A stretch of DNA of 64,000 nucleotides. It comes from Antedon mediterranea (Eukaryota; Echinodermata; Crinoidea; Comatulida; Antedonidae). Positions 10,570 through 63,778 of this stretch are shown here, piece after piece. The notes beneath the pieces were generated by a model that saw only the letters and a program-made list of their open reading frames with translations, had not been told where the DNA came from and made no database searches. Made by a program: the position numbers and the translations under genes. The stretch's first letter is position 1. The number at the start of each line of letters is the position of its first letter. The DNA lies in the NCBI RefSeq assembly GCF_964355755.1, contig NC_092671.1, forward strand, positions 1,592,501 through 1,656,500. The letters are read 5' to 3'.

Positions 10570-12210
10570 ATGGCGTTCATCGTATATGCTGTTTCTATAA
10601 TTCTGGGAATTTTATTTACACCGTGCTTATCGGTTCGTGAACCTAGATGTGAAGAGATCACCATTCCTATGTGCAGAGGGATTGGGTACAACATGACTTA
10701 CATGCCGAACCAGTTTAACCATGATTCGCAAGAGGAAGCTGGTATGGAAGTTCACCAATTCTGGCCTCTCGTTGAGATCAAATGCTCTCCAGATTTGAAG
10801 TTCTTCCTTTGCAGCATGTACACACCAATTTGTGTAACAAACTATCGTAAACCGTTACCAGCTTGTCGAAGTGTGTGTGAACGAGCCAAATCTGGATGTG
10901 CGCCACTTATGAGACAGTATGGGTTTGCTTGGCCCGAAAGAATGCGATGTGAAGATTTACCTGTATATGGTGGCGACCAACTTTGCATGGATTTTAATAC
11001 CAGTGAAACCAGCACAACACAACCTACAGGTATTGTACAACCAACGAAACCAACCAAACCTTGGATTAAACCTGATATTTATCGTACAATTAAACCAAAA
11101 ACCGAATGTACTTGTTCATGTCGTGCACCAATGGTACAAATACCAGAAATTAGTTCATACTACAACCAAGTTACCACTGGTGGTGTACCGAACTGTGGTA
11201 CACCGTGTCGTGGTGCGTTTTTCTCAGAAGACGAAAAAACTTTTGCTTCATTTTGGATTGGTCTTTGGTCAATCTTATGCTGCATATCGACATTTATAAC
11301 AATTCTTACTTATTGTATTGACTCGGAACGATTCAAGTATCCAGAAAGACCTATTATATTTCTAAGCGGTTGTTATCTATTTGTATCAATTGGGTACATC
11401 ATCCGTTTGGTTGCAGGCCACGAAGCTATAGCCTGTGACGGAGCAACCGTTCGTTACGACACCACCGGACCGGCCATGTGTACCTTGGTATTCTTGCTCA
11501 TCTATTTCTTCGGAATGGCTAGTTCTCTTTGGTGGGTTATCCTGTCCTTTACATGGTTTTTAGCTGCAGGTTTAAAATGGGGAAGTGAAGCTATCGCAAG
11601 TTATTCTCAATTCTTTCATCTTGCTGTTTGGCTGATTCCAAGTGTAAAGACAATTGCAGTTCTGGCAACCAGTTCAATTGATGGAGATTCAATTACTGGA
11701 ATATGTTACGTCGGAAACCAAAACATGGACAATTTACGAGGATTTGTTCTCATTCCACTCATTGTATATCTACTCGTCGGATCTTTCTTTTTACTGGCTG
11801 GATTCGTATCATTATTCCGAATCAGACACGTTATCAAACAAGGTGGTACAAAAACTGATAAACTCGAAAAACTGATGATCCGAATTGGCGTCTTTACAGT
11901 TTTATACACGGTGCCAGCAACAATTGTTGTAGCCTGTTACTTCTACGAACAACATTCTCACGATAAATGGAACACTAGTTATAATTGTCAATCTTGTAAA
12001 TTAACGAACAATATTGCACCTGATTATTCAGTATTTATGTTAAAATATTTCATGTGCCTTGTGGTTGGTATCACATCAGGTTTTTGGATTTGGTCGAGTA
12101 AAACTTTAGATTCTTGGAGGAAGTTTTATGAAAGACTTTGTGGCTATGAGTCTAGACCTGTTGTTAGTGGACCCGTAAATACCAAAGCACTGTCCTTAGC
12201 TCATGTTTAA
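10570..12210 (+). CDS. fz5/8: Frizzled receptor, Fz5/8 subfamily, single exon
   Basis: Seven-pass plasma-membrane receptor that binds Wnt ligands through its cysteine-rich domain and signals through Dishevelled. The 546-residue frame has a signal peptide (about 1-22) and a Frizzled CRD (about 25-142) with all ten cysteines (27, 35, 72, 81, 88, 99, 103, 110, 127, 139) and an N-glycosylation site at N41. A Pro/Thr-rich linker follows, then a second Cys cluster (180-213) and seven hydrophobic helices (about 226-505). The Dishevelled-binding KTxxxW motif is KTLDSW at 511-516. CRD wording such as MPNQFNHD, VHQFWPLVEI and MRQYGFAWPERM matches Fz5/8 and differs clearly from Fz1/2/7. The tail ends LAHV, close to the LSHV end of human FZD5, but with Ala in place of Ser at position -2. 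Length is slightly under human FZD5 (585), mostly in the tail. The start AAACATGG is a strong Kozak context, and the intronless structure is usual for FZD5 and FZD8. Confidence 0.97.
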   Translation: MAFIVYAVSIILGILFTPCLSVREPRCEEITIPMCRGIGYNMTYMPNQFNHDSQEEAGMEVHQFWPLVEIKCSPDLKFFLCSMYTPICVTNYRKPLPACRSVCERAKSGCAPLMRQYGFAWPERMRCEDLPVYGGDQLCMDFNTSETSTTQPTGIVQPTKPTKPWIKPDIYRTIKPKTECTCSCRAPMVQIPEISSYYNQVTTGGVPNCGTPCRGAFFSEDEKTFASFWIGLWSILCCISTFITILTYCIDSERFKYPERPIIFLSGCYLFVSIGYIIRLVAGHEAIACDGATVRYDTTGPAMCTLVFLLIYFFGMASSLWWVILSFTWFLAAGLKWGSEAIASYSQFFHLAVWLIPSVKTIAVLATSSIDGDSITGICYVGNQNMDNLRGFVLIPLIVYLLVGSFFLLAGFVSLFRIRHVIKQGGTKTDKLEKLMIRIGVFTVLYTVPATIVVACYFYEQHSHDKWNTSYNCQSCKLTNNIAPDYSVFMLKYFMCLVVGITSGFWIWSSKTLDSWRKFYERLCGYESRPVVSGPVNTKALSLAHV

Positions 12211-12491
12211 CAATATTATTTTAATATATATATTTTTTAATTGCAAATTTAGATTTTTAACTTTGTATTAAGTTAGAGTTGATGTTTCAATACTCAAATA
12301 TTCTTATTAAATTCAGCAAAATGTATTTTATGTCGGTATACGACTTTAAAGAAAAAGAAAAGTTAATTAGGCCCTATATTAAGTTAAACATTATGACTAT
12401 GTTTATGATCATTTTAAGATTTTCATATTTTTCAACACCCTAAAATATATAATTCCATATAATTGAAATATATATCGTGTTCTATCTAAAT

Positions 12492-12636
12492 AATAAAGAT
12501 AATGTGTACATTTAATACATTAAAACATTCGTTGAAATTTGTAATAGAGACCTTTGACACAGAAAATCTGATGGATTATTTGTTTAGGTAGACAAACCAC
12601 GGTAGCATACTGGAAGCTTTTAACACTTTAAATAAA
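12492..12636 (+). terminator. Candidate poly(A) signals of the Frizzled transcript
   Basis: AATAAA hexamers occur at 12492-12497 and 12631-12636, about 280 and 420 nt after the Frizzled stop codon, in AT-rich 3' sequence. Which one is used cannot be told from sequence. Confidence 0.4.
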
Positions 12637-12639
12637 GAC

Positions 12640-13913: not shown

Positions 13914-15420
13914 CTCAATCAATCAATCAATCAAAGTAACATTTATTTCTCTTCTTCTCTTTCATAGAATATAAAAATTAACAGTATATAAATATGATTG
14001 AAATAAGAGGGGCAACATTCCAAAAAAGCGAAGCTTGTATAAGGCAGCCCATAAAAACTGAAAAAAAACCCAGGACAACACGGGAACCGGAAACAGGACA
14101 AAAACAGTAATGAAGACTTTTAGTTTCAGGGTACCGAAAAGACTAAATATCAAAACTACAATGAGTGAAAGGATAATTACACATAACTAGATAAGAGGTG
14201 CCGTTTCAATTTAAAGGCCAGGTGCGGGCAAAAAAATTCTATTGATCATACATTCCAATAATTATCGATCTATAGTTTCCCCTATGTTTCATAATTTTTG
14301 GGATTTTATTTGTGTTACAGGAGCTTTTTGAAAATTAGCACTTTCATATCAGTGGGGGGGATAGTTCAAATTACACAGTAAAATCTCTATTCTTTTGTAC
14401 ACAAATTTTGAAAATAGAGAGGCATTTTAAAAAGCTATGAAAAATAAATAGTGTGGTAAAAAATGTTATCAGATGACTAAATATAGGTAATATAACTTGA
14501 ATTTTACATTTCTGGTATTTTTATTCAACTTCAGAATTTTATTTTCATGCTATAGCAAAAATTATCCACCGTATATCCACCATCTTTTTTCACCTTCTAG
14601 GGAGTCACCAGACATGTTATTACATTATGTTAACTACTGAAAAAAAGTCTTCCTGGATTTTTTGGCTGAATTTTGCCAAATTTTGTATGTGACCATATTA
14701 GGGGAAATTCATGGTTTTTCATCTTGATTTCTGTTACAAATATTTTATTTATGTACAATTAACCATATATTAATTTTAAAATTCATGCCTGTACCTGAGC
14801 TTTAAAAGAAAAACTTTTCTTAGACAAAGCACTTTTTATATTAACTGGTACGTTATCCCAGAGTTTAGGACCAGTGAACTTAATGCTATGTTTAAAAAGT
14901 AGTTTAAAAAAAAGGAATACGTATTTCATTTGCGCTCCGAGTTTTGTAGTTATGAAAATTAAGATTGAAACTAAATAAATCATCAAAGTGTGATGGCAGG
15001 ATCGAGTTTAGCCATGAATAAAGGAAAACACTTTGTTGAAGATGGTTAATATCCTGAATTTTAAGAAGACCAAATGAAGAAAATAAAGGATTGGAATGGG
15101 ATAAGGGAGGAGCATTTGCTATGTATCTTACGGTTTTCTTTTGTATCAATAACAGTTTGTCTAAGTAGGACGGGTATGTATTACCCCAAATAATATTACA
15201 GTAAGTGAGGTAAGGGAGGATTAGTGAACAGTAAAAAATCCGGAATGTTTTGATGGATGAAAGATGATAATCTATATATGATACCAGAACTTTTGGATAT
15301 TTTGTTTTCGACTTGAGTAATCTGATGTTTCCAATTTAGTTTACTGTCCAGATAAACACCAAGACATTTAGTTTTCTCAACAAAGGTATTAATTGATCTT
15401 TAATTTTTAGTTTGAAAGTA
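13914..15420 (-). mobile_element. CR1/jockey-like LINE, 3' part, decayed
   Basis: Reading the minus strand, 15400-15150 encodes reverse-transcriptase C-terminal wording (KCLGVYLDSKLNWK, then KISKSSGIIYRL). It continues through 15149-14904 (VRYIANAPPLSHSNPLF, then FHNYKTRSANEIR) and, after a frameshift, 14986-14783 (GPKLWDNVPVN, then a stop). This is the typical thumb-to-tail region of CR1/jockey-class LINEs. Downstream, 14160-13914 looks like the 3' UTR and ends in AATAAATG followed by a (TGAT)n microsatellite, as such LINEs often do. The copy is 5'-truncated and frameshifted, so it cannot be active. The 14160-14780 segment may be UTR or a nested insertion. Confidence 0.8.
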
Positions 15421-17419: not shown

Positions 17420-17760
17420 AAGCCCAGTTTGTGAGTTGAGAAGAAGCGTTAAGAAAGAGAACGTTACGTTAGAGTAGTGAAAGTAGAGTTGGGAGGGAAT
17501 TTAAAATTGAGTGAGAGAAGAATTAAGGGAACGAAGTGGTCGAAGACTTGAGTTGAGTGAAAGGAGAGTTCTCTTTCTTAAAAGAAAGAGAATGAATTTA
17601 ACATTAAGTGGTAGAAGAGTTAAGAGAACGAAGTGGTCGAAGTTACTTGAGTTGAGTGAAAGGAGAGTTAAAAGAGAACGAATTTAACATTGAGGAAGAG
17701 AAGAGTTAAAAGAATAAAGAATAAGTATTTTGTTTAGTAAGAAGAAGAATTAAACGATAT
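17420..17760 (+). repeat. Purine-rich tract with 97-bp direct duplication
   Basis: The plus strand is almost all A and G for about 340 bases. A block beginning AACGAAGTGGTCGAAG at 17530 recurs at 17627, each followed by CTTGAGTTGAGTGAAAGGAG. A smaller motif (AGAGTTAAGAGAA and variants) recurs throughout. No coding sense is apparent. A tract of this kind could form non-B DNA, but that is only an inference. Confidence 0.65.
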
Positions 17761-18842: not shown

Positions 18843-18904
18843 TAAGCTCTGTCTATACACTTTGCGACAAAAAAAACTTGTTTGATAGTGTAGACAGAGC
18901 TTTA
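18843..18904. mobile_element. MITE family A, short internally deleted copy
   Basis: Only the ends of family A remain here: TAAGCTCTGTCTATACAC on the left and its inverted partner GTGTAGACAGAGCTTTA on the right, with about 27 bp between them. The terminal repeats match the longer copies at 25039, 26804, 47500 and 51926. Confidence 0.75.
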
Positions 18905-19178: not shown

Positions 19179-19208
19179 GGCAAACGATTGCAAACGATTG
19201 CAAACGGG
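19179..19208 (+). repeat. 11-bp tandem repeat, about three copies
   Basis: GCAAACGATT is repeated around 19180-19208 with perfect identity between copies. It is a short local duplication. Confidence 0.6.
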
Positions 19209-20954: not shown

Positions 20955-20999
20955 TTTTGGTACGAAGCTTCTGCTGCATCGCAAATCCACCGGCTTTTT

Positions 21000-25178: not shown

Positions 25179-25179
25179 G

Positions 25180-34000: not shown

Positions 34001-37000
34001 TTATTGAACTGTTTGATATTCTATTCTGTTTGTTTTTTTGTGTTTTTTTTAACCCCATTCCATGCTATCTGTTGTATTTCTATTTATCTTTTTTTTATGC
34101 AATACTACCAATATTTTACCCATCTAGTGACCATGAATTTTTAGCATTTTTTCGGTTTATGCCATTTTTTTTCAATTGTTTGTTCAAGTAATATGACCAA
34201 ATAAATAAAAGTGTGCAAAGAGAAAGATTTTAGGCTTCTAGACATGAGATACCATTAATTAAAAAACTAAGATTATATTAAAAAAATAAATGAATGCGCA
34301 TCGCATATTATAATAAATCAGTATAGAATATGCAATGGTCAATTAATCATGGCATTATACAATAGACATATTAATTATTATTATTTCTAAGAAGTTTTAA
34401 TCTATATTGTTTATCTTTAAATGTTTTTGGATCAGTTGTTGTCAGCAACTGTCTCATTTACATGTCAACTCCTGAAACCTAACTTACTGTATATAAAATA
34501 GAGGGTGCTCACATAGTCTAAGACTGCATTTACAGTGTAGACAGAGCTTTACAGAGAAGCATAGCCAAACCTAATGGCAATGAAATCAACTGTTTCCCAG
34601 ATCTGTAAGTGTCTTTGTTGTCATATTACATTTTCATTCTCTCTGCCCACGTTTCTCGTTTTCTTTGTTGTTGTATGATTCAGAAATTTGAAATTATGAA
34701 TAAATTATTCTCTGGACAATTTTCTTTGTTGGTATTCTTCATAGGGATTTGCACGACTGATGATAGACGTTGCCAAAAAAATAAATTGTTGATTATATTT
34801 GTGGGTTTAACCAGGTAAATTCATTAAGATATTCCATTAAATGGCTCAGACAAGATAAAAAAAAACCAAATTGAATACCAAAGGGTATAAAGTAACTTTA
34901 GATAGTAAGCATATTTAGATTAAACTAGGTGTGGCCTTAAACTAGGTGTGGCCCTAAACTAGGTGTGGCCTTAAACTAGGTGTGGCCCTAAACTAGGTGT
35001 GGCCCTAAACTAGGTGTGGCCTTAAACTAGGTGTGGCCTTAAACTAGGTGTGGCCTTAAACTAGGTGTGGCCTTAAACTAGGTGTGGGCTTAAACTAGGT
35101 GTGGCCTTAAACTTGCGAACTTTTAGGGTAGGCAACCTCGCCCACCTCCACCCCAACTCTTTACATCCATGTTAACTGAAATGATTTTCATAGCAGTGAT
35201 TGAAATGGTCTTTGATGGATACTTACCGTAAAGTCCTGCAGATAAAACAGCTGTAATTCAGATGCATTGTTAGGATTACCATTAGTATAAATTGAATCAA
35301 ATATGGATTATGAAATGATAACATTGAATACAAGAATAAGTTACAAAAATAATTAATGTGGTCAGTCAATTACAATATTGCATGTAAATACTGTATTTTG
35401 ACTATTTTAGCATTTTTATATATAAAAATTTTACTTTGTTTTCAACCATGTTTTATATTTAAAAAGAGGCTTAAAACGTCTAACTTTTGTTCAGTTACAC
35501 AGTTTTATAATTTATATCTGAATTGCACTGATTTCTTGGAACTTGATTTCTAATCGCCCATTTTGACATTTTTATTATTCGTTTGATTTCATTGTTTATA
35601 GTTAGGATTTTCTCATAAAAACAATATTTATTGTTATGTGTGCAAAAATATAAATTTTTTAAATAGGGAATACTTTCTTGTAATGTCTGCATCAGTTGCA
35701 CTCAATGTGTGTACTCCCAAACTGGACACAAGTACCATACAAACTTGAATGTTAATATCCCTTTCTGCAGTGGCGTATATACAGAGGCCGAAATGGTTTA
35801 TTGCTCCTAAGTGGCCATTTATGTTTAAAGACATTTTAGTCTTTTTTGTACATAATTAATTAATGCATGCTTATTACTTCTGGGTCATGCCTGCTCAAGG
35901 GGCCCCTTAAGATCTTGGTGCTCCTGGTAGCCAGAGAGCGCTCATACAGTAGCTGTTACATCACTGCACACAATGCAGTGTGCTAGGTAATTGCATTGGG
36001 CTGCTCATGCTCCAGGCCCCTTAAGCCCCTTGGTTTAGCCAATGAGCAATCATAGCTGATACTGCTACCTTTCTGTAACAATTTAATAATGCAACTGAAA
36101 GTTGAACAACCGACTTATTTTACTATCTATTCCATTATTACGTGAAGTAGTGTATATGCGTGAACACTGGCTGTAAAGAACGTGATTGTAAGAACCTTGA
36201 ACCGTTTAACACGCTTCAACGTTAACTTGTCAATTGACTTTTAAAATAATACCTACTTAAATATTATTATGACACAAACATGTGAAATGAAAACCAAATA
36301 GATTCTGAAAATTAATAAATTAAATATGTTACAGAGTTAAAGTATTAATTGAACTTTAAAAGTTCAAAGGTTGAGTGTCACTTTTCGTTTGACATTTCGG
36401 GGCCCATTTTTGCACTTAACATAGGTAAATAATTTAAACAAGACCAACCACTTAATTAAAGAACAACCTTATTCACGGAACAGTTTTATCTTGTAAATTT
36501 ATAGATATGTTTTAATATAATAATTGTTGGCACTTTTTAAAATATTTGTCTAATTTTTACACAATATTACCCAATTGTTTTACTGTTAGTACTGTATGTA
36601 GTGATATTCCACTTGTTCAGTTATTACTGCAGTAGTGAATTAGTTATTTTATTCTGCCAAATCATGTTGTACCATCAATTATATTACCAACAGTGGAATT
36701 ATGGGATTGATGAACTTTTTATGGGCAGACAACGAGAGCGATTCAAGCAATCTGTTACACCATCTACAGCACCACTTGAGCTTCTCAAAGTTAATGACGG
36801 CCTGGTGTGATAGTTGACAGCACTTATGCTTGTTTCTATAGTTACCGTCGATACACCTACATCATGTTGTGTCTTCGTCAGCTGATAAATATTCAGATAA
36901 CGTTTGTGATTTGTTAAAATAGTTTTACTTCTAAAGTAATTATTATAATACTTTTAAAAGTTATCAAGTAATTTCACTGTTTTTATATTTTGTTAATCTT

Positions 37001-46000: not shown

Positions 46001-49000
46001 TTTGTGTAATGTTTTTGAATTTCAGAATTATTAACAAGAAAGGTTGAATTGTATCACCACTGGGGAGTTATTTTTTATAATTATCAACTCTCTGGTTTCA
46101 ATCTAAAATCTGAATATTCATCAAAGGCTGATATATTGTTTTCCTAGAAATCTAACATTCCGACCATAAAGCAAGCAGTATTCATGATTTGTTTATATTA
46201 ATTATGGCTAGGCTTTCATACCGATATTTATTACCACAATTGAGCACAGTAATACAAAGAAATAGATTCTGTTACAGTTTCGGTTGTAGAAGGCATGGGT
46301 GGGCCCAACCCCACTGGGAGTTTTGAGGTGTGGTGCGGTGTTTTGTAATTTGTGAATCATGGTTCTTGACGGTAGGATGGTGTGTTTGGATTAGATATTT
46401 AAGAGAGTTTTGCAACTGAAAACAAGTTGTTTGGTTTATGTTTACCTGAAAGTGAAAATGTTGTTGTCAAACTTTGACTGAATTTACTTTCTGTTGCTAT
46501 TATTATAATAGTTTTGATGCTGTTTTGTCTTTTTATTTTTAATTGATTGAAAATGCTATTTGAAAATGTAAAATTAAATTCATTAAAAAATTATCAAATA
46601 AATAAATCTTATATTGATTACTCGTATTCTGTAGTAAATCAGAAATAGAATCGGACATACTGTATGTATCGGACATACTGTATGTATCGGACATACTGTA
46701 TGTATCGGACATACTGTATGTATCGGACATACTGTATGTATCGGACATACTGTATGTATCGGACATACTGTATGTATCGGACATACTGTATGTATCGGAC
46801 ATACTGTATGTATCGGACATACTGTATGTATCGGACATACTGTATGTATCGGACATACTGTATGTATCGGACATACTGTATGTATCGGACATACTGTATG
46901 TATCGGACATCGGACATACTGTATGTATCGGACATACTGTATGGAGTGGAGTTGTGGCTTGGTGGTTATGATGCTTGGCTACCAATCTAAGGGTCCTGGG
47001 TTCAAGTCCTGTCATATGTCAGGGTTTTTTTCTCATGACAATTTACAACTCCACTCCCAAAGACTTAATAATAAGTCTTTGTTTATGTAGAGCATCTTGT
47101 GTATATGTTTGTCTTGTGAAATTTTAAATAGTTTATCCATCCTGTAATTGGCGGGTTACTCGCTGTTGGATGAGTATGAAATAATAAATAATAAGTATCG
47201 GACATACTGTATGTATCGGACATACTGTATGTATCGGACATACTGTATGTATCGGACATACTGTATGTATCGGACATACTGTATGTATCGGACATACTGT
47301 ATGTATCGGACATACTGTATGTATCGGACATACTGTATGTATCGGACATACTGTATGTATCGGACATACTGTATGTATCGGACATACTGTATGTATCGGA
47401 CATACTGTATGTATTGAAAGTTTATATTGAATTAAAATAATGGAAGGTAAAAGAGAAATTGTCCAAGTGGGAAAAAAATGTATTATGTTACTAACTTTTT
47501 AAAGCTCTGTCTACAAACTTTATGTGTCAAAAAATGTGATATGCCCATATATGGACATGATGATGTCATATCACTATCATATTTGGGCATATCACTACCA
47601 TATGTGGGCACATCCCACTTTTTAGTCAAACTAGTTTGATCGTGTAGACAGAGCTTTATACTTTAAAAATATATATTTATGTCTATATATAACATTTTGA
47701 TGCACTGTGATTTATATGTATACTATATACTACCTAGTTGTAAAAGTGACAATAACGTAAAAGTGACTATAAAGTAAAAGTGACAATAACGTACATGTTT
47801 ATAATAAGTAGGCCTATAAGGTTTAGTACCAATATGTAGAGCACAAAATAAGTTTGTGCTTTAGTGTACAAATGGCAAAAGCTGATGATGAAACCTACGA
47901 TATCAGTTATTGATGATGCCATGCTTGCATTTAATATGTTCTGTAATGGTTAATAAGAAGGTTCAGTCTTTAATTAGAATACCTTAAGGGTCTTGAAAGC
48001 CTTCCAATTTATCATATAAATCAGATTTACCTTTTTGCCTGAAGAGTCTAGTCTAGTTGATAGAAAACTAATCATTTTAATTGAACAAAACTGAACTAAA
48101 TTGAAATATAAATCATACAAGTTAGAATGACATGTAGATTAATGCTCTAATGTATTGACAAGGTAAGGTTTAATTAGAATTAGTAACTATACAATTTATT
48201 ATTCCTAACACATATTGTCTATTTTGTGCTTACTAGCTTACCTGGATAAATCTAAGCCATTGCTTTCCCAAGAGAGAGCAATTGATACTAAACCTTTCTT
48301 TAGCATCCCTCTACACAAAACAACAATGTAATGTAATAACATTAGTAGTATTATGAAACGTGTGGAACACAAAATTTAAGGAAAATAGGAAGCCCAGCTG
48401 CATTATGTGACCAACCAATGTGTGACTATACTTAAATGAGGTTATGCATAGTATAGGAAGATAATGATGAACACCACAGTTATATACTGTAATATATGGA
48501 TATCTATATGGATGTGCAAGATAAAAATAATAAATATAAAAGAAAGAAGATAACATTTTAAATGACTGTTTAGTGGTCGTGTCAAAATTCTTCTACTGCA
48601 GTTACTACATTTTTAACTCCCAATACGTATGGTTTTAGTTTTAGAGTAATTGTATTAATAATGAGAGATACATGAATGTGGTATATTAACATCAGATAAT
48701 ATTGTTTGAAGGTGTAAATCATTTATGATTGTATTCTACAAAATGTTCAGTAATCATAAGCTTGGTTGATTCTGGAATTTAAATTGCAATTCAAATGCTG
48801 TGAATATTAATTAAAATCTTTTAAAAACCTCAATGTCATTAGAATTAGAATACCGTTTTCATTAAATGCACACGTTTTTGTTCTTCATGCCAATTTTACA
48901 GACTTAGGTTGGATATATCTGTCATCGTCATATTATCTGCTTGATTCGTTTTTAATAATTGCTTATTTTATCTTTTAATCAGGTAACCTTGTTGCAGATC

Positions 49001-53302: not shown

Positions 53303-56300
53303 GCATCAGTCCTCCTCCATCCCTCTTCGTTGTGTGAGATTCTTGCTTTGTTTTTATCATCTTTTAACTTTAAACTCTGCTGCCTATTATATTGTAGGCC
53401 TATTGTCTGTTCAACCTCATAAACTTCAGTATTTATTACACACCATTCATTTTGTCTAATCATTTCCACTTTCTGATTCCATAAATGATGTAGAGAAAAG
53501 CATTTTATAAAACTGTGTTAACAGAAAAATGTATATTTGTAATGTACTGTATTGTCAAATCAATCAAAAACTGAAGTTAAAATTGATGATTTCTTAATAA
53601 GATTCCATTATTAGCTTTTTATTTGATAGATGATAAATTTATTTTTGTAAAAGGTAAAAAATTAAACAATAATTTCTCAGTCGGAATTTTATAATAGTAG
53701 TATTAGCATTTTTACTTTTTGATGATGGATATAGATTGTACAAATGTACATAGATGTTAACAAGTGCATTGATCGCAGTAAAACTTTATTTTCAATCGTC
53801 AATGCTTACATGAATTAATGAGATGAAAATGAAGAAGATCACATTGGTGAATGATTGCAACTGAATGAGAACATTACCGCCTACGTGGCTTCATCATCAG
53901 CGAGAATTGACGACAGACCAACACTTTGGATGCGTAGTGCTTCACAGCTCTCCTAATGAAGCTTACGTCAGTCTCCGTATTAACAAACTCATACAACTTT
54001 CGATTTGTTATTAAACGTACACCAGGTTATGTATAAATATGTTTCTATCTTCTTAGGGTGCTTTTACTAATTCCAGTGCAATATTTAGGAGCGTAACAGA
54101 GGAGAATGGAAATCAGGTAATGGGAAGCTCTACCAGCGTCACGCTTCCAGCAAAGCCGAAAGGAGGTCGACCGGCGCTCTATCGATACCGGTCAGCAAAC
54201 GATGCGTTGCCTCAGCTGTACAACAATTATATAAAGGAGTTGGAAAAAAATAAAAGCAAGGATGATTATGTTAGAAAACCGAGGCCTAGAAGTATGTTGG
54301 CAAGTGTAAGTTCGCCTTTACGTAATTAGTCGTCGTTTGGTAGAAATAGCATGTTTTGTCAACCTTCGTTTACTGTATACTTTGGCGTACTGTTTAGCAC
54401 TAATTCTTAATACTCACGTTTTGATTCAAGCATGATCCTTAATTTTAACAAATTAAATAGAAAATAGCATTTTCTCTCTAGATATAGTGTAACTTGAGTT
54501 TTTTCATTACTTGTTTGTAAATGTATGTTTGAACACTTATTTTACAGTACGTAGTCTAGTATGCATAGATATATGTATTAATGTACAAAATTAATTACTG
54601 CATTTGTGTTTTTATTAATGTTTTATCATAAATATTTTGTTCATTGGTGTTGTTTAGTTGATGTAGTTTAGTTATTTTTGTATCTACAATCAGCTATCCT
54701 AAATACAGACTCTCTTAAAATAACCTTTTGAGAAGAATTTTCTGGTCCGAAAGTTCCAAAATTATACAAGTATTCTACAATTAGCCTTTCTGGACAACCA
54801 TAATTGTTAGGTCAATTTTTCAAAGATTTCTGATTTTTGGAAAGTTGATTGTATTTGTTTAAAATAATATTAGTAGTGCATAGTACTGTGTGTTACATAG
54901 ATTTTAAAAATTATAATTGTGTGATAATTTTAGTCTATTTGTGTCTTTTGTTTTTAAAACTTTATAGCTAAGTATATAGTATACATAGAATAACAGTAAA
55001 CGCCTTCTTAACTATAACTGCATATTGACGGTTTGTATTAACAGCATAATAATAATCATAATAAATTAAATGGCTAATCAAATAAAAATGTGATTTGTAA
55101 CTAGTAGTAGTAGTAGAATAATAAAAACATTTTGCATCAAATTTAAATGAAAGCGTCGTCACTGAGACTCTACCTACTTGATGTCATCATTCAAAAGATG
55201 TATTAATGGCACATCAACAATTTCTGTCAAAATGTTATATTCCCCATTAAATCCTACTCTCTCTACTCATGGCAACAGTGAGAGATATTTTACGATGCCT
55301 TTTACATGCGAGTACGCCAAACCAAATTGTATCTGTATTCAATAAAACAACATACTACTTGCATTAGAATTACTAATTATTATCAAATTAATCATTTTGA
55401 TTTATTTTTATTGAAATTTTTTTAAAGGGTGAGATGGTTTGTCAAGGTTTTAATCTCCTTTATTTCTTTCCATTCTTTTTACGAGGGTGGTGCTTCCTCA
55501 AACATTAGGTTGGGGAGTTGCTTCAACCATTTTCCTCTATTTTCCTCTTCGTTCTCTGACTGCAGTATCAATGATATTCTGTTTCTTCTAGGAACGATGC
55601 TTAGAGTACTACTATGTATCCATTTCCATTTAATGCATGATACATTACCCTTTTATGGATCCATTATACCTGCTTAATGGCTTATTAAGACCAACTTCCT
55701 CTTGTCATCGTCGTTTTGTTTTTCTTTAGATAAACATTAGGTTTTAAGACGTGTTTTGTCTGGAGAATAAGATCTTTTATAATCTTGTGTCTATATTTCT
55801 TGGCCTATTTCTCCACGAGAAAAGCGCTACAGCTTGAATACCTACAAATTAATTAAACACCCCTCTCAGAAAATTGTACATTATTACATGAACCCTGCCC
55901 CCAAGGGGAATGCGAATATACCACCATCATTTCTAGGTAAGCGGAACTTGGCACTCGTAGACTACCAGCACCACTTTGTTTGTGTGATATATATGACTAT
56001 ATCCAGGTGGTGGTGATATCTTCATTGCTTCCAAATTTTGATCATGAATATTCATTATTCAAATATTCTTGATTTAGTCGTGTTTGAGTAAATAAAGTAT
56101 GTGTACTAAAGTACTGTGTTCTATCAATGTAGTAGCTTGTAGAAATTCTAAAAAGCATGATCAATTTGATAATTAACCTTTGTTTTTTTACTTTTTGTGA
56201 CATGCTTTCTTTGTGGTGTTGGCAATGTTTTCATCAATAATGTTGAAATTCATCAAATAATGTTCACATGTTCAACACACAGTTTAAGCATCTTTTTATG

Positions 56301-59300
56301 TGCAATTTTATTATACTGAAATTTTTCAATATTGATTTTTACATACGTTTTTGCACTTTTATTTCTTTCAATAATAAATATATGGTAATTTCATTTAACC
56401 AGTAGTTTTTCTTCTTTCGTGTATATATTGTAATATTATAGATTTAATTTAACTAGTAGTTAAACAAAACAGAGGAAAACCAATTTTTTTATAATACCAA
56501 TATTTTATTATTTTTACTGCTAATATCGTTATAGTCCAAATTTTTAAACATGCGTGTGTGTGTAAATTTACTCTACTGTTCAAAATTTCAATTTTAAATG
56601 ATAATTTCTTGATTTATTTTTTGCATTTGTTTTTACAGATTTGTGCCACGCAGGGTCGCCTGGAGTCGTATAAGAAGATATGTCGACTTGGTGAGGGATC
56701 ATACGCCACAGTGTACAAGGCACATTCAATGTAAGTATGTTAGAAAACTTCTGAAGGGATGGGGGAAACATGTCTCCCCTACTGGTAGAAAGGTATAGTT
56801 GATATTAGATATTCATGGTAAAAAGTTTGATAAAATGGGTAGGCTAGACAATGAGAAACAGATTGTCTTCCTGTGAGACAAAAAGCCAGTAAAAATGGCT
56901 CAACTCTAACCCCCATTATTACACTAATACAGTAGTACAAATGATGTCCATTCTAAAGTATACCTGAAACATCTTATTAAACACTTTATTTTAAATACTT
57001 TCAATTCAAAGCTGCAGTTTCAGAGAAGAGCCTAACACCATCATTATGAATTGAAGACAAGTGAAAAAATGAAATTAATACTTCATCTTCTAGCCTCTAA
57101 TTTAAGCCAAATCAATATTAATTAAATTGAATAGCTCTTCTATTTGCCAAATTTACCGTGGTAATTTTGTGAAATTGGCATGTAAAGGTTGTTAGGGTTA
57201 CATCATTGTGATATTTGCCAAGATACAAACATTAGCTGGTTGATTTCAAACTAAATAATAAGCCTACAAGATTGATTAAATTACATACTACTATTTATTC
57301 CTCTCAATGTTTTCATGTTTTCTTTCTATGTGTTCTACAAGATTTGTTTCAAATACAAGAAAATGAACAAATTATTAAAACAAAATGTAGATATAGAATC
57401 TTGAAACCATTTTCTTAATCACAAAAAGAAGAATAATAATTTATGCATAAATAATTTGTTTTTAACTCTAGAACCAACACCAACCAAATTGTAGCATTAA
57501 AAGAGATTCATTTACAAGAGGAAGAGGGCGCACCATTTACAGCAATACGAGAAGCGTCGTTACTAAAGAAGTTAAAGCACGCCAACATTGTTCGTCTACA
57601 CGATATTATTCACACAAAGAAATCGTTAACATTTGTATTTGAGTATGTGGTAAGTACATTATGTCCGAAACTTTTGGAAATAAATAAATAAACCAACAAA
57701 TAAAAGATCCCTAAAATACATTCTGTTAACACATTAATTATACCTAAATAAATAAATTAAATATTTTAAGTCAAATGAAATTGCTGAAGACAAAATTCCA
57801 TGTAGTGGTTTTATTGTGAATCACCACAAGAAAGAGGAATTTCCGTTTTTCCAACAATACCAGATAATCTTTCACTTCCGTTTGTAGATCTTGAGATTGT
57901 GTCAAGTAAACATTTGTAAGACTATTATGCATTGTACATTATTATCAAGTGGTCTATAATCAACACTTGTCTTTGAATTTTAGAAAATAGCATAAATTGT
58001 TGCCAAGTTCCAGTAAGTTCACTCAACAATGTGTACTTTATTTAAAAGAATGTTAAGACTTTCTTTCATTACACATCAATATTCTCTTATTTCCCTTCTT
58101 GTTCCTATTTATTGTATTATTTATACAAATGTACTGATTTTTAAAGTGGTTTAGTAACTACAACATATATAATAAATAACAACATTTATACAAAAACAAA
58201 ATACAAAAGAAACACATAATTGCATAAGAGTGTTTTTATCTCTGAAAGAAAGTAGATGGTTAAAATGTTGTTTATCAGGATTCATGTCTCTTAAGTAGTT
58301 GGTAGGATTATGTTAGGGAATGTTGGAATGTTGTAATGTTGTAATGTTGATTTAATAGTGTGTGAGATAATGTTATATTAATCAGAACACTGCAGTAAGT
58401 ACAGTAGGCTAACAAACAAGCCTAAGTAACCACTTACACAAGATAATGTACGATTTTGAAAACGTGAAAAACATGTAAATATTGAAAATTCGTAGTCTGA
58501 ATGGGCTTAGCCAGAAGGTAAGATTTATTTAGATTAATCGTGTACGGGTTTATTCTTTGACATTTTCATACGATGTACACCATTAGGTAAATATTGTGAT
58601 TGTGAATCTATCTACAGTATGAATCTATAAACATCATTATAATAATGATGTTTTAGTAGCCGATTCTCAGTATTACATTCGTCCAATACCATATAATATT
58701 AGACAAACATTACCATATATGGAGATACAATTCTTTTATTTCATATTTAGTACAATAATATTACATTTAAAAGTTGTGATTCCTTCAATAAATGTAATCC
58801 ATGTGTTTGTATGGCGAAAAATCTAGCTAGAGACATTACATTTGTATGTTGACAATCTTGCTATCGGTTAATGCCACTTTTATTGGCCATTTATCAGCAG
58901 GATACAGAGACAGTCAAATAATAGTTGGACTTTAATAAGAAATTGATCACTAAGATTCTAGAATAATTTAAGAAGCTTTCTTTTGCATTTGTAATAAATC
59001 GTGAAATTGTTGATAAAGTTTAAATAATTACTATTGTATCACGATTATCATTATCATTATTACAATCTTATTACCGTAATTATAATCAACACTATCTTTA
59101 TAATCATCATCAATACAAACATCTTTATCATTTAATAAGGACATGGATATCTTTATAGTCATCATATCATCTTTGTCGCCATCATCATCATCGTCGTCAT
59201 ATTCCCATCATCAATAATAATTTGCTAGCATTCTTCATCATTGTTATCAACATCGTTATCATCATCGTTATCATCATCGTTATCAACATAACATTTTTCT

Positions 59301-62300
59301 CTTTCTCAACATATTATCTGCACTATTGTCATTGTTTCCGCATGGAGTAAAGAATAGTTACTCCATTGTTTCCGTCTTTACTAGGTCTTAGATATTTTTT
59401 TAAAGTAATAATGATATTATTTCTACCTATACCTTTCTAAACTATACAAACTTATAATTGTGATTATTTTTAGAAATAACAACATGTTATGTTAACAAAC
59501 AACATAAAATTGATTCAGTGTTCTGGATTTTCCTGCCGGGAAATGTTAAGTACTAATAGGTTCCTTTGACCTTATCCATATTTCCGGTATAGGATCTTAT
59601 CTCAAGGAAGCGTCCTGAAAGATCCATGGAAATGTTGTTGCTGGGAATTCAGTTGGAAGTATTAAGTGGTTCAATATTACTGGATGTGATTGTTGTTTTA
59701 ATTTTTGACAAGTGTCGTTTGAACGCTGTATTGCTAGGTTAATGACTATTGTAGGATTAAATGAGCCAACTACTATTTTATTTGTTTAATAACGCAAACA
59801 GATTAATAAGATGTGTATCAAAAATGTATTATTTTGAACTTTACCATAACTAATTTTTCCATACTATATAAGAAATAAACAAAACCTAAAAAATGAAAAG
59901 AAAGGGGGAAAAAAGGCAATTGAAAATGGAGTAAAATTTGTTTTCTTTTGAATTATTTTATTATCATATCCTATTTATTGTTATTATTTTGCAGAATACA
60001 GACTTAAATACACACTTAGAGAACCAAGGAGGCAGTCTACACCCAAGCAATGTTTGTCTGTTCCTCTTCCAGTTATTACGTGGCTTAGACTTTTGTCACA
60101 GGCAGCTTATTCTTCATCGGGACTTAAAACCACAGAATATTCTTATTAGTGAAAATGGCGAGTTGAAACTTGCTGATTTTGGTAAGGATTTCTTCAAATA
60201 GTTTTTGTGTTTTTCACAAAAATATCATAAAAATTAGCTGTATACTTGTACCCAGTAATCTATTTTGTGCTTAACTTACCTGGATAAACCAACAATAGCC
60301 CATGTTCTACTGAAATGATGATGCTGGTACCTTTATGTGGTTGGTCCATTATTCTAATGGGATGTTCAATGAACTTCTATAGACAATTAGATGCTTAGCC
60401 ATTTTTGTAAAGGATTGTACAAGAAACTTTTCATATTGTAGCTTCCTCCCAGAAGAGCATGGTCTATTTTCGGTTAGTCCAGGTATAGCGGCACTCAGAT
60501 TAATAATAACAATATTTGTTCTTAGATAGTGCTTATTGCCCAATTCTTGTGCTTCACATTATTACCCCAGTCATTTTTTGGATCAAACGCATATGGAGAC
60601 GTACTCCCATAATGCAGTTAGTAATCCGCGCAAAGTTGTGTCTACCCCATGGTTACACCTGGATTACCAACACTATACTATTGGTTTGTGTATTAATATA
60701 TTAAGCCAATCAATTAAAGAATTTCTCATACAAAGCGATTACAACATTCTTCACTCGTCATTGTATTTCTTTTTAGATAATTTTTAATAGAACTATTATC
60801 TTAATTTTACATCAAATGAGAGACTTCATATAGGTATTGTGATTTCTGCTACATCAAAATAATTGCCAATAAGTAGCTAGTGGCAGGGTAATAAACAAAG
60901 GGATTACAGTGGCGACTGATGCACATCATGCCATACATTAAAAGTAAAAACGACAACATTATTTACATTTTATATTACAAATGTGATATGTAGATAGATA
61001 TTATTTTATAATATCAGGTTTCTTTATTTATGTAAAAAACAGGCTAAACAAGAAATATTTCTTACAAAAAACGCTGCTCGCTTATTGACGTAACAGTTTT
61101 AAAGATATATTGTCCCTCTGAAAAATATTTTTTATTTCAAATTTGTTTTTGAATGTGTCATTTTATTGTCACATAATAGTTATTTTACCTGAAAAAATGT
61201 AATTAAAAGCAAAAAATACTTCAATTGTCTGTCAGACAATGTGGTTTTTGAGTTATAATAATTAAACGTTTCTTTTCTCTTTTTATAATGTGAATTTTGT
61301 TACAGAAGTGAATAACTTTGATATGAAACAGACTCAATTTAGTTTATTTTATTGCTAAGGTCAAGTCTGGGGGTCACTTCATCACGCCTTAGATACTTCA
61401 AGTGTGAAGTATCATATTACAAACAAAAACTTTCATGGGTCGTGTTCGTACGGTGGTTAAAATAAGCGCTTAATTTCACCCATGCCTCGGGTTATAAATT
61501 GAGCGTCGTTCGTACTTGAAATATTTAACCGTTTAAATGGTTAATCGACGAATCACAAACCGGAAATTACGTTTTAAGGTCAGTTGTCTTTACAACCTAC
61601 GACCCCATTTTCGCGCGCTAGTTTTGTGTTGTATATTTTTTACTCGCGATCTATCTTTACAATAACAATTACTTGCTACTTTTTACACTGCTTATCCTTG
61701 CGACAAACCTTATGCCTCTTAACACCGATAATCCTGCCGAAATATGCCTTCTCCTGACGACCATTATTTTACTCCTTCTTGACGAAGAATTTGAGCCCAA
61801 TGTTACACGAAACACCACCGACCAGCTAGGCCTACTAAGCGGTTTTCACCAACAAGGACAGCACCAGCTGACGATCGCTCTCGAAGCGTGTATGGAAGAG
61901 CTTCGTAGGAGAAATGACGGGCCTAGGCAGCGAACGTTTGTCGAAATTTGACACAACGCCTCTATCGGAGATTTATTATCCTCGAAGGCCGAGTATAATT
62001 GGATTATCACTGAAATAACCTGCAAATTTGGTGAACATTTTGCCTCAAATTTTTTGTAGCCTGAGGCAAAAGTTAATTGGGTCACGCGAACGGAAATCGG
62101 GAATAAGCTGGTATTTTCAACCCCTACGAACAGGCCCATGGACTGTTTTGATAATAATTCAATGATTATCTGACAGTGAAATACAGTATTGTCATGGGAC
62201 TAATAAATACCAGAAATGCAGCTGGTACCTATAAATTATAGTCGAGTTTCCATTTTAGCAAAAATGTCAAAGTGTAGTACTATAACTGCTGCTTGATTTC

Positions 62301-63778
62301 ATCTAATAAATGAGTCATCTCGTGTGACGTAGCGGGCTAGAGCAGCAGCGTGAAAAATGTACACTAACATTATCAAAGAACCTGAAATTGATTTGTATCA
62401 ACAAAAATAAAATTTAAAAAAATATATACAAAATCAAAAATTGATCCACATAAAATATATATATCTCAGTTATTTAGTAATTCATGCTTTTAGATTTAAA
62501 TAAAGTTTATATTGATTGTAGTATCAACCGTACATATCAATCAGTCATCGACATTTTATTCCATAATCAATATAAAAACATATACAAATACAATACAAAT
62601 AATATGATAATAATATACAAACACATATTTTATCTAACTGTCAAATGTAATTAGGTCTATGTGTAATGTTATTCTGCCTTCAATTAGTTTTGTACTTTCA
62701 TTTGCGTCTAACACTTTATTTTAATGTCACACTGATTTCAAGAAGGCATTTCGTTAATGAATTGATTGAAAGTACCTGAAAATAGAAAATAACATCTGTG
62801 TAACCTAATAAGTGTATATTGTCACTGTAACCTCGGTGACAGCTTGGTGCTTACCTTACCTTAAGTGAATGCTTAAATGTTGAAATTATACAGTACATAA
62901 AAACAGAATCGTAATAGGGGAGTCATGATGCGAGTGGTGGTGGTGCGGGGATGGGATTTGGGCGGGGAAAGCCAACCCCCAACCATCAACCCTAAATTCT
63001 GAAAAATTGCCATACAAAAGATAGGACATGTTAATTTCAGAAGTTTATTTTACAATTTAAGGCTGTCATCCTTCTCTATTTCAAAATCTTTATACAATAT
63101 CACTGATTAACAAATATAAAAAATAAAATTTTATGAAAATGAAAATCTTTTTTTTTCTAGGCCTAGCTAGAGCCAAGTCGATACCGAGTAAGACCTATTC
63201 ACATGAGGTTGTAACACTATGGTACCGGCCTCCTGATGTCCTCCTAGGCTCAAAAGACTATTCAATACAGTTAGATATGTGGTAAGAAACTTATTAAGGA
63301 ATTTAAATAATTATAGAACAGTCTATATGCTAATCATAATGGTATAATACTCTTTACTTTTGAAATATTTTCGTAATTTGAATGGACATACATAAGTCCT
63401 TGTGAAACATTTTGTAGGACTATTAGACAATTGCAGTGCTGATCATCACTGTGATGGATGTGGTTTCTTAGAAGACCAAATCAAAATCAAAAGGCAATTT
63501 AAATTTTATTGAAAGTTACTTTTGCTGAATTTTGTAATTCCACACTATATATACTATACTACTTGCTTTATCTATTATTTGGTAATAATTCGCAAGGTCA
63601 TCCACTTTGCTGCCCGACTGTACAGTACACTTTCTGTGCATGAAGAAATAAATATATTTATTGCCATTTTCTTATTATTTTCAGGGGTGTAGGATGTATT
63701 TTTGTTGAAATGATCACAGGACAAGCATTATTTCCTGGAATGAAAGACTTCAAAGACCAGCTAGAGAGAATATTCAAG
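31018..63778 (+). CDS. cdk14/15-like: PFTAIRE-type cyclin-dependent kinase, 5' part (nine exons)
   Basis: Cyclin-dependent Ser/Thr kinase of the CDK14/CDK15 (PFTAIRE) class; family members pair with cyclin Y at the membrane and phosphorylate LRP6 in Wnt signalling. Exons: 31018-31054, 33643-33741, 39346-39413, 54057-54305, 56639-56730, 57472-57649, 59995-60181, 63161-63281, 63685-63778. All phases agree, giving about 375 residues so far. The first about 151 form a Ser/Pro- and Arg/Lys-rich N-terminus. The kinase domain shows the glycine loop GEGSYATVY, the VALK lysine, the PFTAIRE helix, [11 protein letters not shown] (split by an intron), [12 protein letters not shown] and [13 protein letters not shown]. 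The last wording fits CDK14 better than PCTAIRE kinases. The C-lobe end lies beyond the window. Confidence 0.93.
31561..31658 (+). repeat. 31-bp tandem repeat, about three copies
   Basis: ATGCTTAATCTTAGTATGAT followed by TAGCATACAGT is repeated with starts at 31584, 31615 and 31646. A shorter, diverged unit starts at 31561. Each unit contains GCATAC/GTATGC-type inverted words. Confidence 0.75.
32032..32350 (+). mobile_element. tRNA(Ser/Leu)-derived SINE
   Basis: The head contains an RNA polymerase III A box (TGGCCGAGCGG, about 32041-32053) and B box (GGTTCGAGGC, 32096-32105), spaced as in a tRNA. The A box wording is that of class II Ser/Leu tRNAs, but no tRNA fold is complete, so this is not a tRNA gene. 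The body includes GGTAGAACGAGTCTTCTCGG, and it ends in ATTCA-type tail repeats (about 32336-32355). A diverged second copy lies at 37801-37950. Confidence 0.8.
33643..33741 (+). CDS. CDK gene, exon 2
   Basis: The acceptor is TTATTTTTTCAG and the donor GAT|GTAAGT. The frame that joins both neighbours reads [18 protein letters not shown], then [11 protein letters not shown], a basic N-terminal region. The alternative open frame in this exon would meet a stop in the next exon, so I rejected it. Confidence 0.7.
33859..33996. mobile_element. MITE family A, diverged copy
   Basis: CTATATCTACACTCTCAAAC and TTGTAGACAGAACTTTAT are decayed inverted ends. The interior AAATATGGTAGTGATATGAC and TCATGTCCATATATGGGAAC is clearly family A. 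Confidence 0.65.
34921..35112 (+). repeat. 17-bp minisatellite, about eleven copies
   Basis: The unit is TAAACTAGGTGTGGCCT with few variants (CCT/CCC/GCT at the end). It lies in CDK intron 2. High identity suggests recent amplification or homogenisation. Confidence 0.9.
37170..37310 (-). mobile_element. LINE 3' tail fragment
   Basis: On the minus strand the sequence reads TATATTGGCGAAATAAATGA followed by TATGATATATGATATGAT. An AATAAATG plus short-tandem 3' end of this kind is usual for CR1/L2-type LINEs in marine invertebrates. There is no coding part, and identity is inferred from the tail pattern. Confidence 0.4.
37325..37793 (+). repeat. 69-bp minisatellite, about 6.8 copies
   Basis: The unit begins TATACTGGCTTGATACTGTA and continues TGATGTCACCGATACATACA to TTATGTGATCA. 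Starts are at 37325, 37394, 37463 and so on. Copies are nearly identical. Because 69 is divisible by three, the minus strand has a 177-codon open frame, which I regard as an artefact of the repeat and not as a gene. Confidence 0.92.
37801..37950 (+). mobile_element. tRNA-derived SINE, diverged copy
   Basis: The A-box-like AGTGGCCATTACGGCAGG, B-box-like AGGTTCAAGGC, and body GGTAGAATAAGTCTTCTCCG match the SINE at 32032-32350 in order and spacing. Confidence 0.65.
38380..38398 (+). repeat. G-run, G13-T-G5
   Basis: An uninterrupted run of about 13 G, one T and five G on the transcribed strand of CDK intron 2. A sequence like this can form a G-quadruplex and is prone to length change. Confidence 0.8.
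39346..39413 (+). CDS. CDK gene, exon 3
   Basis: The acceptor is CTTATTCTTACAG and the donor GAC|GTAAGT. Two bases complete a Ser codon, then [20 protein letters not shown] and VD follow. The Ser/Pro-rich composition resembles the SSPSSPTSP region just before the kinase domain of human CDK14. Confidence 0.8.
42840..43190 (+). repeat. Degenerate tandem satellite, about 75-bp unit, five copies
   Basis: The phrase ACTCATNTACCNNCAGTGGA followed by CATTTTAAAANAACATTAAT and CTTTGAATATGCAACATTAT recurs, with unit starts at 42840, 42914, 42997, 43072 and 43147. Divergence between copies is clear, so the array is old. Confidence 0.75.
43693..43828. mobile_element. MITE family B copy
   Basis: AAGCTTGGTTCCTACTTGGA and CTAAGTGGGAAA are inverted ends. 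The core GACGCAATGCAATGACG, ATGGATCATCCGAAC and GCTTGTGATTGGTCAC is in family order. About 136 bp. Confidence 0.7.
45925..45985. mobile_element. Solo end of MITE family C
   Basis: GATCTATTGTTGGTTTATCC followed by AGGAAATTAGCACTCA is the reverse complement of the left end of the complete family C copy at 60256-60503. The partner end could not be found with confidence. Confidence 0.45.
46649..46943 (+). repeat. 18-bp minisatellite, array 1, about sixteen copies
   Basis: The unit is ATCGGACATACTGTATGT. Each unit contains the palindrome ACATACTGTATGT. One slipped unit (GGACATCGGACAT) lies near 46905. Open frames on both strands over the array (108 to 158 codons) come from the period being divisible by three. 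Confidence 0.93.
46947..47194 (+). mobile_element. tRNA-derived SINE inside the 18-bp minisatellite
   Basis: The head has an A box (GTGGCTTGGTGGTTA, about 46957-46971) and B box (GGTTCAAGTCC, 47000-47010). GTGGAGTTGT near the start pairs with ACAACTCCAC at 47046-47055. The tail reads AATAATAAATAATAAG. The 3' part has a second, truncated relative at 27814-27875. Flanking arrays have the same unit in the same orientation, so insertion into an existing array is the simplest reading. Confidence 0.75.
47195..47414 (+). repeat. 18-bp minisatellite, array 2, about twelve copies
   Basis: Same unit and orientation as array 1 at 46649-46943, from which it is separated only by the SINE. Copies are almost identical, so both arrays are young or have been homogenised. 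Confidence 0.93.
47500..47658. mobile_element. MITE family A, complete copy
   Basis: TAAAGCTCTGTCTACAAACT and CGTGTAGACAGAGCTTTA are inverted ends. The interior AATGTGATATGCCCATATAT and CATCCCACTTTTTAGTCAAA is itself largely symmetric about the centre. About 159 bp. Confidence 0.8.
49138..49243. mobile_element. MITE family B, compact copy with intact TIRs
   Basis: AAGCTTGGTTCCCACTTGGA at the left is the inverse of CCTAAGTGGGAACCAAGTTT at the right. The shortened core TTGGTCACTTGTAATTGGTC lies between. About 106 bp. Confidence 0.78.
51926..52052. mobile_element. MITE family A copy
   Basis: TAAAGCCTTGTCTACACTAT and TAGTGTAGACAGCTTA are inverted ends. The interior TTTGGGCATATCACTACCAT is the family core. 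About 127 bp. Confidence 0.72.
53275..53303 (+). repeat. GATA microsatellite
   Basis: Seven or so uninterrupted GATA units lie in CDK intron 3. Confidence 0.9.
54057..54305 (+). CDS. CDK gene, exon 4 with two in-frame donors
   Basis: The acceptor is ATCTTCTTAG. The frame starts [20 protein letters not shown], where CAG|GTAATG (54117) is a possible donor. It continues [20 protein letters not shown], then [18 protein letters not shown] and ends RPRSMLAS at AGT|GTAAGT (54306). Both donors leave phase 0, so exon 5 can be joined either way; the long form adds 63 residues. I recognise no domain in the extra segment. Confidence 0.7.
54306..56638 (+). other. CDK gene intron 4
   Basis: About 2.3 kb, AT-rich. 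An exon-like segment at 55859-55925 has AG and GT borders, but its length would break the frame; see the rejected list. A GTA repeat is present near 55105. Confidence 0.5.
56639..56730 (+). CDS. CDK gene, exon 5: glycine loop
   Basis: The acceptor is TTTTTACAG and the donor AAT|GTAAGT. It encodes [18 protein letters not shown] followed by [12 protein letters not shown], which includes the ATP-binding glycine loop GEGSYATVY. The length is usual for this exon in CDK14/15. Confidence 0.93.
56731..57471 (+). other. CDK gene intron 5
   Basis: About 740 bp of AT-rich sequence without a recognisable element. Confidence 0.7.
57472..57649 (+). CDS. CDK gene, exon 6: PFTAIRE helix
   Basis: The acceptor is TAACTCTAG and the donor GTG|GTAAGT. 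It encodes [18 protein letters not shown], then [19 protein letters not shown] and [11 protein letters not shown]. The VALK lysine binds ATP and the PFTAIRE helix contacts the cyclin. The Phe after the Pro, where PCTAIRE kinases have Cys, sets the subfamily. Confidence 0.96.
57650..59994 (+). other. CDK gene intron 6
   Basis: About 2.3 kb. A long imperfect ATC/ATT simple-sequence region lies at 59040-59290; otherwise AT-rich. Confidence 0.7.
59040..59290 (+). repeat. Imperfect ATC-type simple repeat
   Basis: ATCATC, TTATCATC and ATCGTT words dominate about 250 bases of intron 6. Confidence 0.8.
59995..60181 (+). CDS. CDK gene, exon 7: catalytic loop
   Basis: The acceptor is ATTTTGCAG and the donor TTTG|GTAAGG. 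It encodes [43 protein letters not shown] and the start of DFG. HRD Asp and the Asn of KPQN are both present, so the enzyme should be active. If the donor is not used, the frame stops shortly after. Confidence 0.96.
60256..60503. mobile_element. MITE family C, complete copy
   Basis: The left end TAATCTATTTTGTGCTTAAC continues TTACCTGGATAAACCAACAA and TAGCCCATGTTCTACTG. The right end is its approximate reverse complement (AGAGCATGGTCTATTTTCGG, then TTAGTCCAGG and GCACTCAGATTA). About 248 bp. Solo ends of the same family occur near 41810, 45940 and 48230. Confidence 0.65.
61437..62137. mobile_element. 0.7-kb TIR DNA element with CpG-rich interior
   Basis: The left end GGGTCGTGTTCGTACGGTGG continues TTAAAATAAGCGCTTAA. 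The right end, read in reverse complement, is GGGCCTGTTCGTAGGGGTTG followed by AAAATACCAGCTTATTCC. The ends therefore share about 30 imperfect bp. A 92-codon frame at 61673-61951 with charged C-terminus ([15 protein letters not shown]) may be a remnant of an element protein. The TIR start GGG..TGTTCGTA is reminiscent of PIF/Harbinger elements; the target duplication is not clear. Confidence 0.6.
63161..63281 (+). CDS. CDK gene, exon 8: activation loop
   Basis: The acceptor is a long T tract followed by CTAG and the donor TG|GTAAGA. It encodes [18 protein letters not shown] then [20 protein letters not shown] and MW. The loop has the Ser/Thr-rich KTYSHEV in place of the T-loop threonine of mitotic CDKs, as usual for this class. 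Confidence 0.96.
63282..63684 (+). other. CDK gene intron 8
   Basis: About 400 bp, AT-rich, nothing else seen. Confidence 0.8.
63685..63778 (+). CDS. CDK gene, exon 9
   Basis: The acceptor is TTATTTTCAG and the donor AAG|GTAGGC. It encodes [18 protein letters not shown] followed by [24 protein letters not shown] is the best single match to CDK14 among CDKs. Confidence 0.95.

Follow-up and report, generated by a model that had tools for sequence, protein, structure and literature searches.

In the crinoid Antedon mediterranea, a Frizzled gene of class Fz5/8, a PFTAIRE kinase gene of class CDK14/15 and a Frizzled gene of class Fz1/2/7 follow one another on a single contig, all on the + strand and within 94 kb overall. 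This arrangement, seen in one invertebrate and compared with vertebrates, probably represents an old linked block of genes for Wnt reception. With an ancestral order Fz5/8 - CDK14/15 - Fz1/2/7, the human pairs CDK14-FZD1 and CDK15-FZD7, together with FZD5 on 2q33, could be read as its remnants. Moreover, four genes with a Frizzled CRD and no match to the seven-helix domain are found between the kinase and Fz1/2/7. Separate Frizzled CRD genes beside their likely parent receptor would be an easy way for new Wnt modulators to arise. The window, which is the whole stretch of DNA that was analysed, comprises 64,000 nucleotides (C2:1592501-1656500, where C2 is contig NC_092671.1), and the assembly searched has 354 Mb in 18 contigs. 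Positions past the end of the window are given as continued window coordinates.

The Fz5/8 receptor, the PFTAIRE kinase and the DNA between them

The Frizzled gene in the window is intact and consists of a single exon on the + strand, 10570-12210, an open reading frame of 546 residues that makes a complete Frizzled. When compared with solved structures, the protein scored highest with FZD5 (751 bits), followed by FZD7 (600 bits), FZD1 (587 bits) and FZD4 (468 bits). In a tree of CRDs, its CRD paired with that of human FZD5 with a support of 100/99. The C-terminal end reads KALSLAHV, and FZD5/8 proteins presumably end in a similar way. By its CRD and its seven-helix domain, which are nearest to those of FZD5/FZD8, the receptor is classed as Fz5/8. 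The initial annotation, made from the letters of the window, had called a receptor of this type, and the reading frame, the best match and the CRD pairing agree with it.

The kinase gene is located downstream on the same strand and carries PFTAIRE and HRDLKP motifs. Its exons were located by matches to the human CDK14 sequence and then joined via their splice sites. Seven exons between 54057 and 65149 have GT/AG borders and join in frame. The first of them, 54057-54305 (+), is a probable 5' coding exon, predicted from splice sites and phase alone (phase 0 into the next exon). The kinase-domain exons start at 56639 and extend beyond the end of the window. Within the window they are 56639-56730, which contains GEGSYATVY, 57472-57649, 59995-60181, which contains HRDLKPQN and LADFG, 63161-63281 and 63685-63778. 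All five are on the + strand and have both a CDK14 match and a splice join, and the exons at 57472-57649 and 59995-60181 were also found with Pfam. The exon beyond the window, 65086-65149 (+), was placed by its splice join, and the CDK14 query gave an additional match to the C-lobe of the kinase at 66661-66813. Position 63778, first taken for the end of the gene, is the end of an internal exon, and the kinase continues past the window. The human N-terminal kinase sequence gave no 5' exons besides the exon at 56654, and more 5' exons may exist.

In the PDB, the closest entry to the window kinase is CDK16. A search of the genome with the PFTAIRE exon gave six matches at five loci, and since the four other loci read PCTAIRE (C9), PSSALRE (C1), PSTAIRE (C6) and PITAIRE (C1), the window gene is taken to be the PFTAIRE (CDK14/15) gene, the sole one found in the genome. 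The earlier call of a CDK14/15-class kinase stands, with seven exons in frame and the other four loci not PFTAIRE.

The distance from the stop of Fz5/8 is 41.8 kb to the first placeable kinase exon and 44.4 kb to the first kinase-domain exon, instead of the 19 kb that the initial annotation had given between the Frizzled stop and the start of the kinase. The unrelated gene that it had placed between the two was not recovered: a six-frame Pfam search of 12211-54302 (18 translations) revealed no gene that carries a Pfam domain, although this is a search that a domainless gene or a gene with very short exons would escape. As a positive control, the same method was applied to the three forward frames of 54301-64000, and the kinase became visible in two of them. 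The only Pfam matches in 12211-54302 were two weak ones, PF23165 with 18.2 bits (cut-off 24) and PF24646 with 17.4 bits (cut-off 28.1). Both were rejected as an intervening gene, being below their cut-offs and placed by hand on the tandem repeats 34920-35113 and 47195-47414. Ten hand-picked open reading frames gave one sub-threshold match in Pfam, to DndB, and exon finding by codon usage gave no result for further genes. The region 66900-80900, which runs from the kinase to the first of the CRD-only genes, was searched by eye and by codon use.

Some other features can be noticed in this DNA. An open reading frame at 14907-15335 (-) resembles, by eye, the end of a non-LTR retrotransposon and is without a Pfam match. 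In an intron of the kinase, a codon-like open reading frame at 61622-61948 (+) has related-looking fragments in adjacent frames (by eye) and is perhaps a decayed retrocopy. Two neighbouring arrays, 46650-46943 and 47195-47414, are made of one 18-base unit (ATCGGACATACTGTATGT) and are open in several frames on both strands. At 37325-37798, a 69-base unit is present in 6.9 copies with 99% matches.

A second Frizzled beyond the kinase and the vertebrate pairs

A further Frizzled close to the end of the window was one of the points that the initial annotation had proposed to check. Such a gene was looked for, and Fz1/2/7 was found on the far side of the kinase, 36 kb past the kinase and 92 kb from the window Fz5/8. 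Its open reading frame, C2:1695009-1696835 (+), corresponds to 102509-104335 in continued coordinates, and the first ATG is at 102614. In comparison with solved structures, it scored 708 bits with FZD7 and 704 bits with FZD1, far above the 487 bits with FZD5. With its CRD and seven-helix domain, this gene is classed as Fz1/2/7, and it is the only one of this class found in the genome.

A Frizzled profile gave nine matches in the whole genome. These consist of four single-exon Frizzleds, two on C2 and two on C7, four exons of one C1 gene, which by eye looks Smoothened-like, and a weak match on C7. This last locus, C7:22232803, was rejected as a Frizzled, having by eye the look of an adhesion-type receptor. 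The gene at C7:7060887 is Fz4, with 677 bits to FZD4 versus 495 bits to FZD1. The gene at C7:24474252 is probably Fz9/10 by its CRD, which scored 144 with FZD10 versus 142 with FZD5, a thin margin; its whole protein matched FZD4 best, and FZD9 and FZD10 were absent among the 14 matches listed. The PFTAIRE locus, the only one found, is flanked by two of the four single-exon Frizzleds of the genome. On C7, the probable Fz9/10 and an sFRP-like gene with a CRD and an NTR match (C7:25214346) are 0.74 Mb apart, and a second sFRP-like gene and Fz4 are found on the same contig.

Human CDK15 adjoins FZD7 on 2q33, and human FZD5 is located at 2q33.3. The strands of the human CDK14-FZD1 and CDK15-FZD7 pairs are presumably like those of the Antedon block. 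In both human pairs, CDK14-FZD1 (7q21) and CDK15-FZD7 (2q33), a PFTAIRE kinase is followed by a Frizzled of class Fz1/2/7, as it is here. However, the Antedon block differs from them in having Fz5/8 on the other side of the kinase and four CRD-only genes in the gap. For chromosome 7, a human gene list has CLDN12, CDK14, FZD1 and MTERF1 as consecutive genes (PMC6834745), in line with the initial annotation, which had placed FZD1 next to CDK14. PFTK1 (CDK14) is reported at 7q21-q22 in human and on chromosome 5 in mouse, and mammals have CDK15 (Als2cr7) as their second PFTK gene (PMC10617079). In sheep, FZD7, FZD5 and CREB1 are on one chromosome (PMC9140571). Among the matches listed in a literature search, from which subscription journals were mostly outside, no title or start of an abstract reports a linkage of Frizzled and PFTAIRE kinase genes.

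The spacing of the block has a small probability by chance. Any two among four random loci would be 92.2 kb or less apart with a computed p of 0.0029, and one given kinase locus would fall inside one given 92.2 kb with a computed p of 0.00026. Both values argue against a coincidence particular to this lineage, in which the genes met on one chromosome and were later rearranged close to each other, independently of the vertebrate pairs. Furthermore, the vertebrate pairs had given the class of the partner beforehand, and the search then turned up the Fz1/2/7 that was predicted; the order of the kinase and Fz1/2/7 also matches that of the human list (PMC6834745). In favor of a coincidence, the basis is one invertebrate genome, and two of the five neighbour tests described below did not place the family of the human neighbour on C2. 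We consider this explanation improbable.

The two Frizzleds of the block could also be old tandem duplicates with the kinase as a bystander between them, and the linkage would then be the scar of a duplication. Fz5/8 scores nearer to FZD7 and FZD1 (600 and 587 bits) than to FZD4 (468 bits), and the remaining two Frizzleds are together on another contig, C7, as this explanation would have it. However, so old a scar needs some force to last, and the CRD tree, with an open fork at this point, does not have Fz5/8 as the sister of Fz1/2/7. We give a duplication scar a low probability.

The preferred reading is an old block, which we infer goes back at least to the ancestor that ambulacrarians share with vertebrates. 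When the genome was later duplicated in vertebrates, Fz1/2/7 and the kinase would have been kept together twice, as CDK14-FZD1 and as CDK15-FZD7. The vertebrate Fz5/8 would have drifted away but remained on human 2q33; of the three block genes, 2q33 would thereby retain all and 7q21 two. An ancestral linkage of Frizzled and PFTAIRE kinase genes had been suggested from the window, and the presence of Fz1/2/7 on the other side supports it more strongly than the sequence of the window alone allowed. Two accounts of the Fz5/8 class of the window receptor had been offered with it. An early cluster of several Frizzleds with the kinase fits the position of Fz1/2/7 on its other side, and an exchange of partners is not needed.

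Wider linkage on C2 and the forces that may hold the block

Five more genes or families from around the human pairs, picked along the way, were tested: cyclin Y, TMEM237, Hox, CREB and the RH-domain. Cyclin Y is found at C2:34469368-34472658, 32.8 Mb from the block, with three exon matches that are 58-94% identical to a human query. TMEM237 has two matches on C2, from C2:14164185. A Hox cluster is located on C2 at 7.83-8.21 Mb, with 12 homeoboxes called Hox by eye. CREB was not found on C2, the single match in the genome being a partial pKID match on C1, and the RH-domain, the family taken for PLEKHM3, has nine matches, on C3, C5 and C8 and not on C2. These two of the five neighbour families speak against an old block. 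C2 makes up 11.5% of the assembly, and the chance of finding at least three of five families on it is p = 0.013, for families picked along the way. A general cyclin profile gave no match near the block.

The Hox cluster on C2 is ordered and has about 12 genes, with one posterior gene on the opposite strand. The posterior genes resemble the ambulacrarian set, 9/10 and 11/13a-c, as would be expected of an echinoderm or hemichordate. Homeobox matches, of which 104 were listed, are located on C1-C11, and this would fit the 11 chromosomes of crinoids.

In human, mouse, zebrafish and carp, the gene order KLF7-CCNYL1-FZD5-PLEKHM3 has been described (PMC4686014). As in these vertebrates, Fz5/8 and a cyclin Y gene share a chromosome in Antedon. 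However, CCNYL1 and FZD5 are adjacent in vertebrates, whereas the Antedon cyclin Y is 32.8 Mb away from Fz5/8. A link in Wnt function between the kinase and the receptor had also been put forward by the initial annotation. The part that concerns the PFTAIRE kinase, cyclin Y and LRP6 is in print: cyclin Y activates PFTK1, and the fly kinase with cyclin Y is cited as phosphorylating LRP6 (PMC10617079). No evidence was found for co-function as the reason why the genes stayed together, and the departure of cyclin Y from the neighbourhood argues against joint function as the glue. Tentatively, and as a possible rather than a probable reading, it may be shared regulatory DNA and not joint action of the proteins that kept the genes of the block together. 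Regulatory DNA of the Frizzleds, lying in the long gaps and in the introns of the kinase, would make breaks harmful, and the kinase would possibly be a bystander of Frizzled regulation.

The CRD-only genes between the kinase and Fz1/2/7

Four genes with a Frizzled CRD and without a seven-helix match are located between the kinase and Fz1/2/7. In continued coordinates, they are gene A (80984-81733), gene B (85619-86281), gene C (95990-96544) and gene D (97353-98138). Each has a signal peptide (by eye) and an intact ten-cysteine CRD and lacks a seven-helix domain, as is expected of CRD-only genes, and the ten cysteine columns are common to A, B, C, D, Fz1/2/7 and Fz5/8. In the 15 pairs of these CRDs, the synonymous differences (pS) are 0.69-0.88, which is near saturation, and the nonsynonymous ones (pN) are 0.22-0.44. 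The ratio dN/dS was computable for two of the 15 pairs (0.26 and 0.32), the other pairs being saturated. The CRDs of A-D are under apparent purifying selection, and these genes do not look like decaying copies.

A CRD profile gave 34 matches in the genome, and the CRD tree was made of 26 CRDs, 21 of these and five human ones. The 21 comprise those of the four Frizzleds, the four CRD-only genes of C2, two sFRP-like genes, one other CRD on C8 and 10 of the 11 copies of an array on C8. Excluded from the tree were 12 matches that scored at most 65 bits and the one array copy (92 bits) that has an in-frame stop. In this tree, B, C and D form a clade with their own Fz1/2/7 (95/93). The wider clade of B, C, D, the own Fz1/2/7 and human FZD1 and FZD7 has a support of 93/90 and is not starred. 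The CRD of A is unplaced, and its grouping with Fz1/2/7 is not rejected (AU p 0.189). In the PDB, D is nearest to FZD2/7/1 (FZD2 173 bits versus FZD8 131 bits), and its DNA has 74.5% identity to that of Fz1/2/7 over 220 bases, while A is equivocal (FZD2 110 bits versus FZD4 108 bits). The four genes would have been gained between the kinase and Fz1/2/7 in this lineage, and at least three of them may have arisen as copies of the CRD of the adjacent Fz1/2/7.

Like A-D, sFRPs have a Frizzled-type CRD outside a receptor. However, the CRD-only genes of C2 do not pass as sFRPs, because no NTR domain was found near them. The NTR domain has five matches in the genome (C1, C6, two on C7 and C10) and none on C2, in a search that weak domains may escape; the two C7 matches sit near CRDs. 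CRD-only genes are known from Platynereis (fzCRD-1 to -3) and from Aplysia (one gene), and these also have a CRD without seven helices or NTR and are read as lineage-specific copies (PMC4669655). Of the Platynereis genes, fzCRD-1 falls into a group with sfrp3/4, and the two others are unplaced (PMC4669655), whereas three of the Antedon genes group with, and adjoin, their own Fz1/2/7. The words "tandem" and "synteny" are absent from the main text of that paper, which thus does not use these terms for an array beside a parent receptor.

The products of A-D are probably secreted or tethered Wnt binders, which would act on extracellular Wnt as decoys or carriers. Gene A ends in its own hydrophobic tail (by eye), which could be a GPI-anchor site, and the frame of C ends directly behind the CRD. 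At the ends of B and D are strong phase-1 donors, with GTAAG at 86256 and 98095 in continued coordinates, so that another exon is probable for both genes. A common 3' exon for B and D was searched for and gave no match. These donors, together with the lack of GTAAG in any of the four Frizzled ORFs and a phase-1 acceptor-like site at 103314, before the first helix of Fz1/2/7, would also fit alternative first exons that are spliced onto the seven-helix part of Fz1/2/7, giving one receptor with several Wnt-binding heads. However, each of the four Frizzled ORFs has several acceptor-like sites (4, 4, 8 and 8), and GTAAG is found at three further places inside A and D. The ends of C and A do not fit such heads, and the splice would lose the linker cysteines. 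Alternative heads are thus extremely improbable, and we retain separate CRD-only genes as the preferred reading. That the whole Wnt-reception block has been held by shared long-range regulation since before the deuterostome split, with CRD-only binders that could be switched together with Fz1/2/7, is a broader proposal and a rather doubtful one.

Another group of CRDs is found on C8. Eleven Frizzled-type CRD matches are arranged in tandem within 6.2 kb at C8:15065807-15071986 (-), and one of them has an in-frame stop. There is mostly one CRD per open frame, and two are in one frame of 291 residues. The CRDs are followed by two segments that end in DYCR, one of which reads DQNGDGRDDYCR. The stretch resembles a single multi-CRD gene or a densely packed array.
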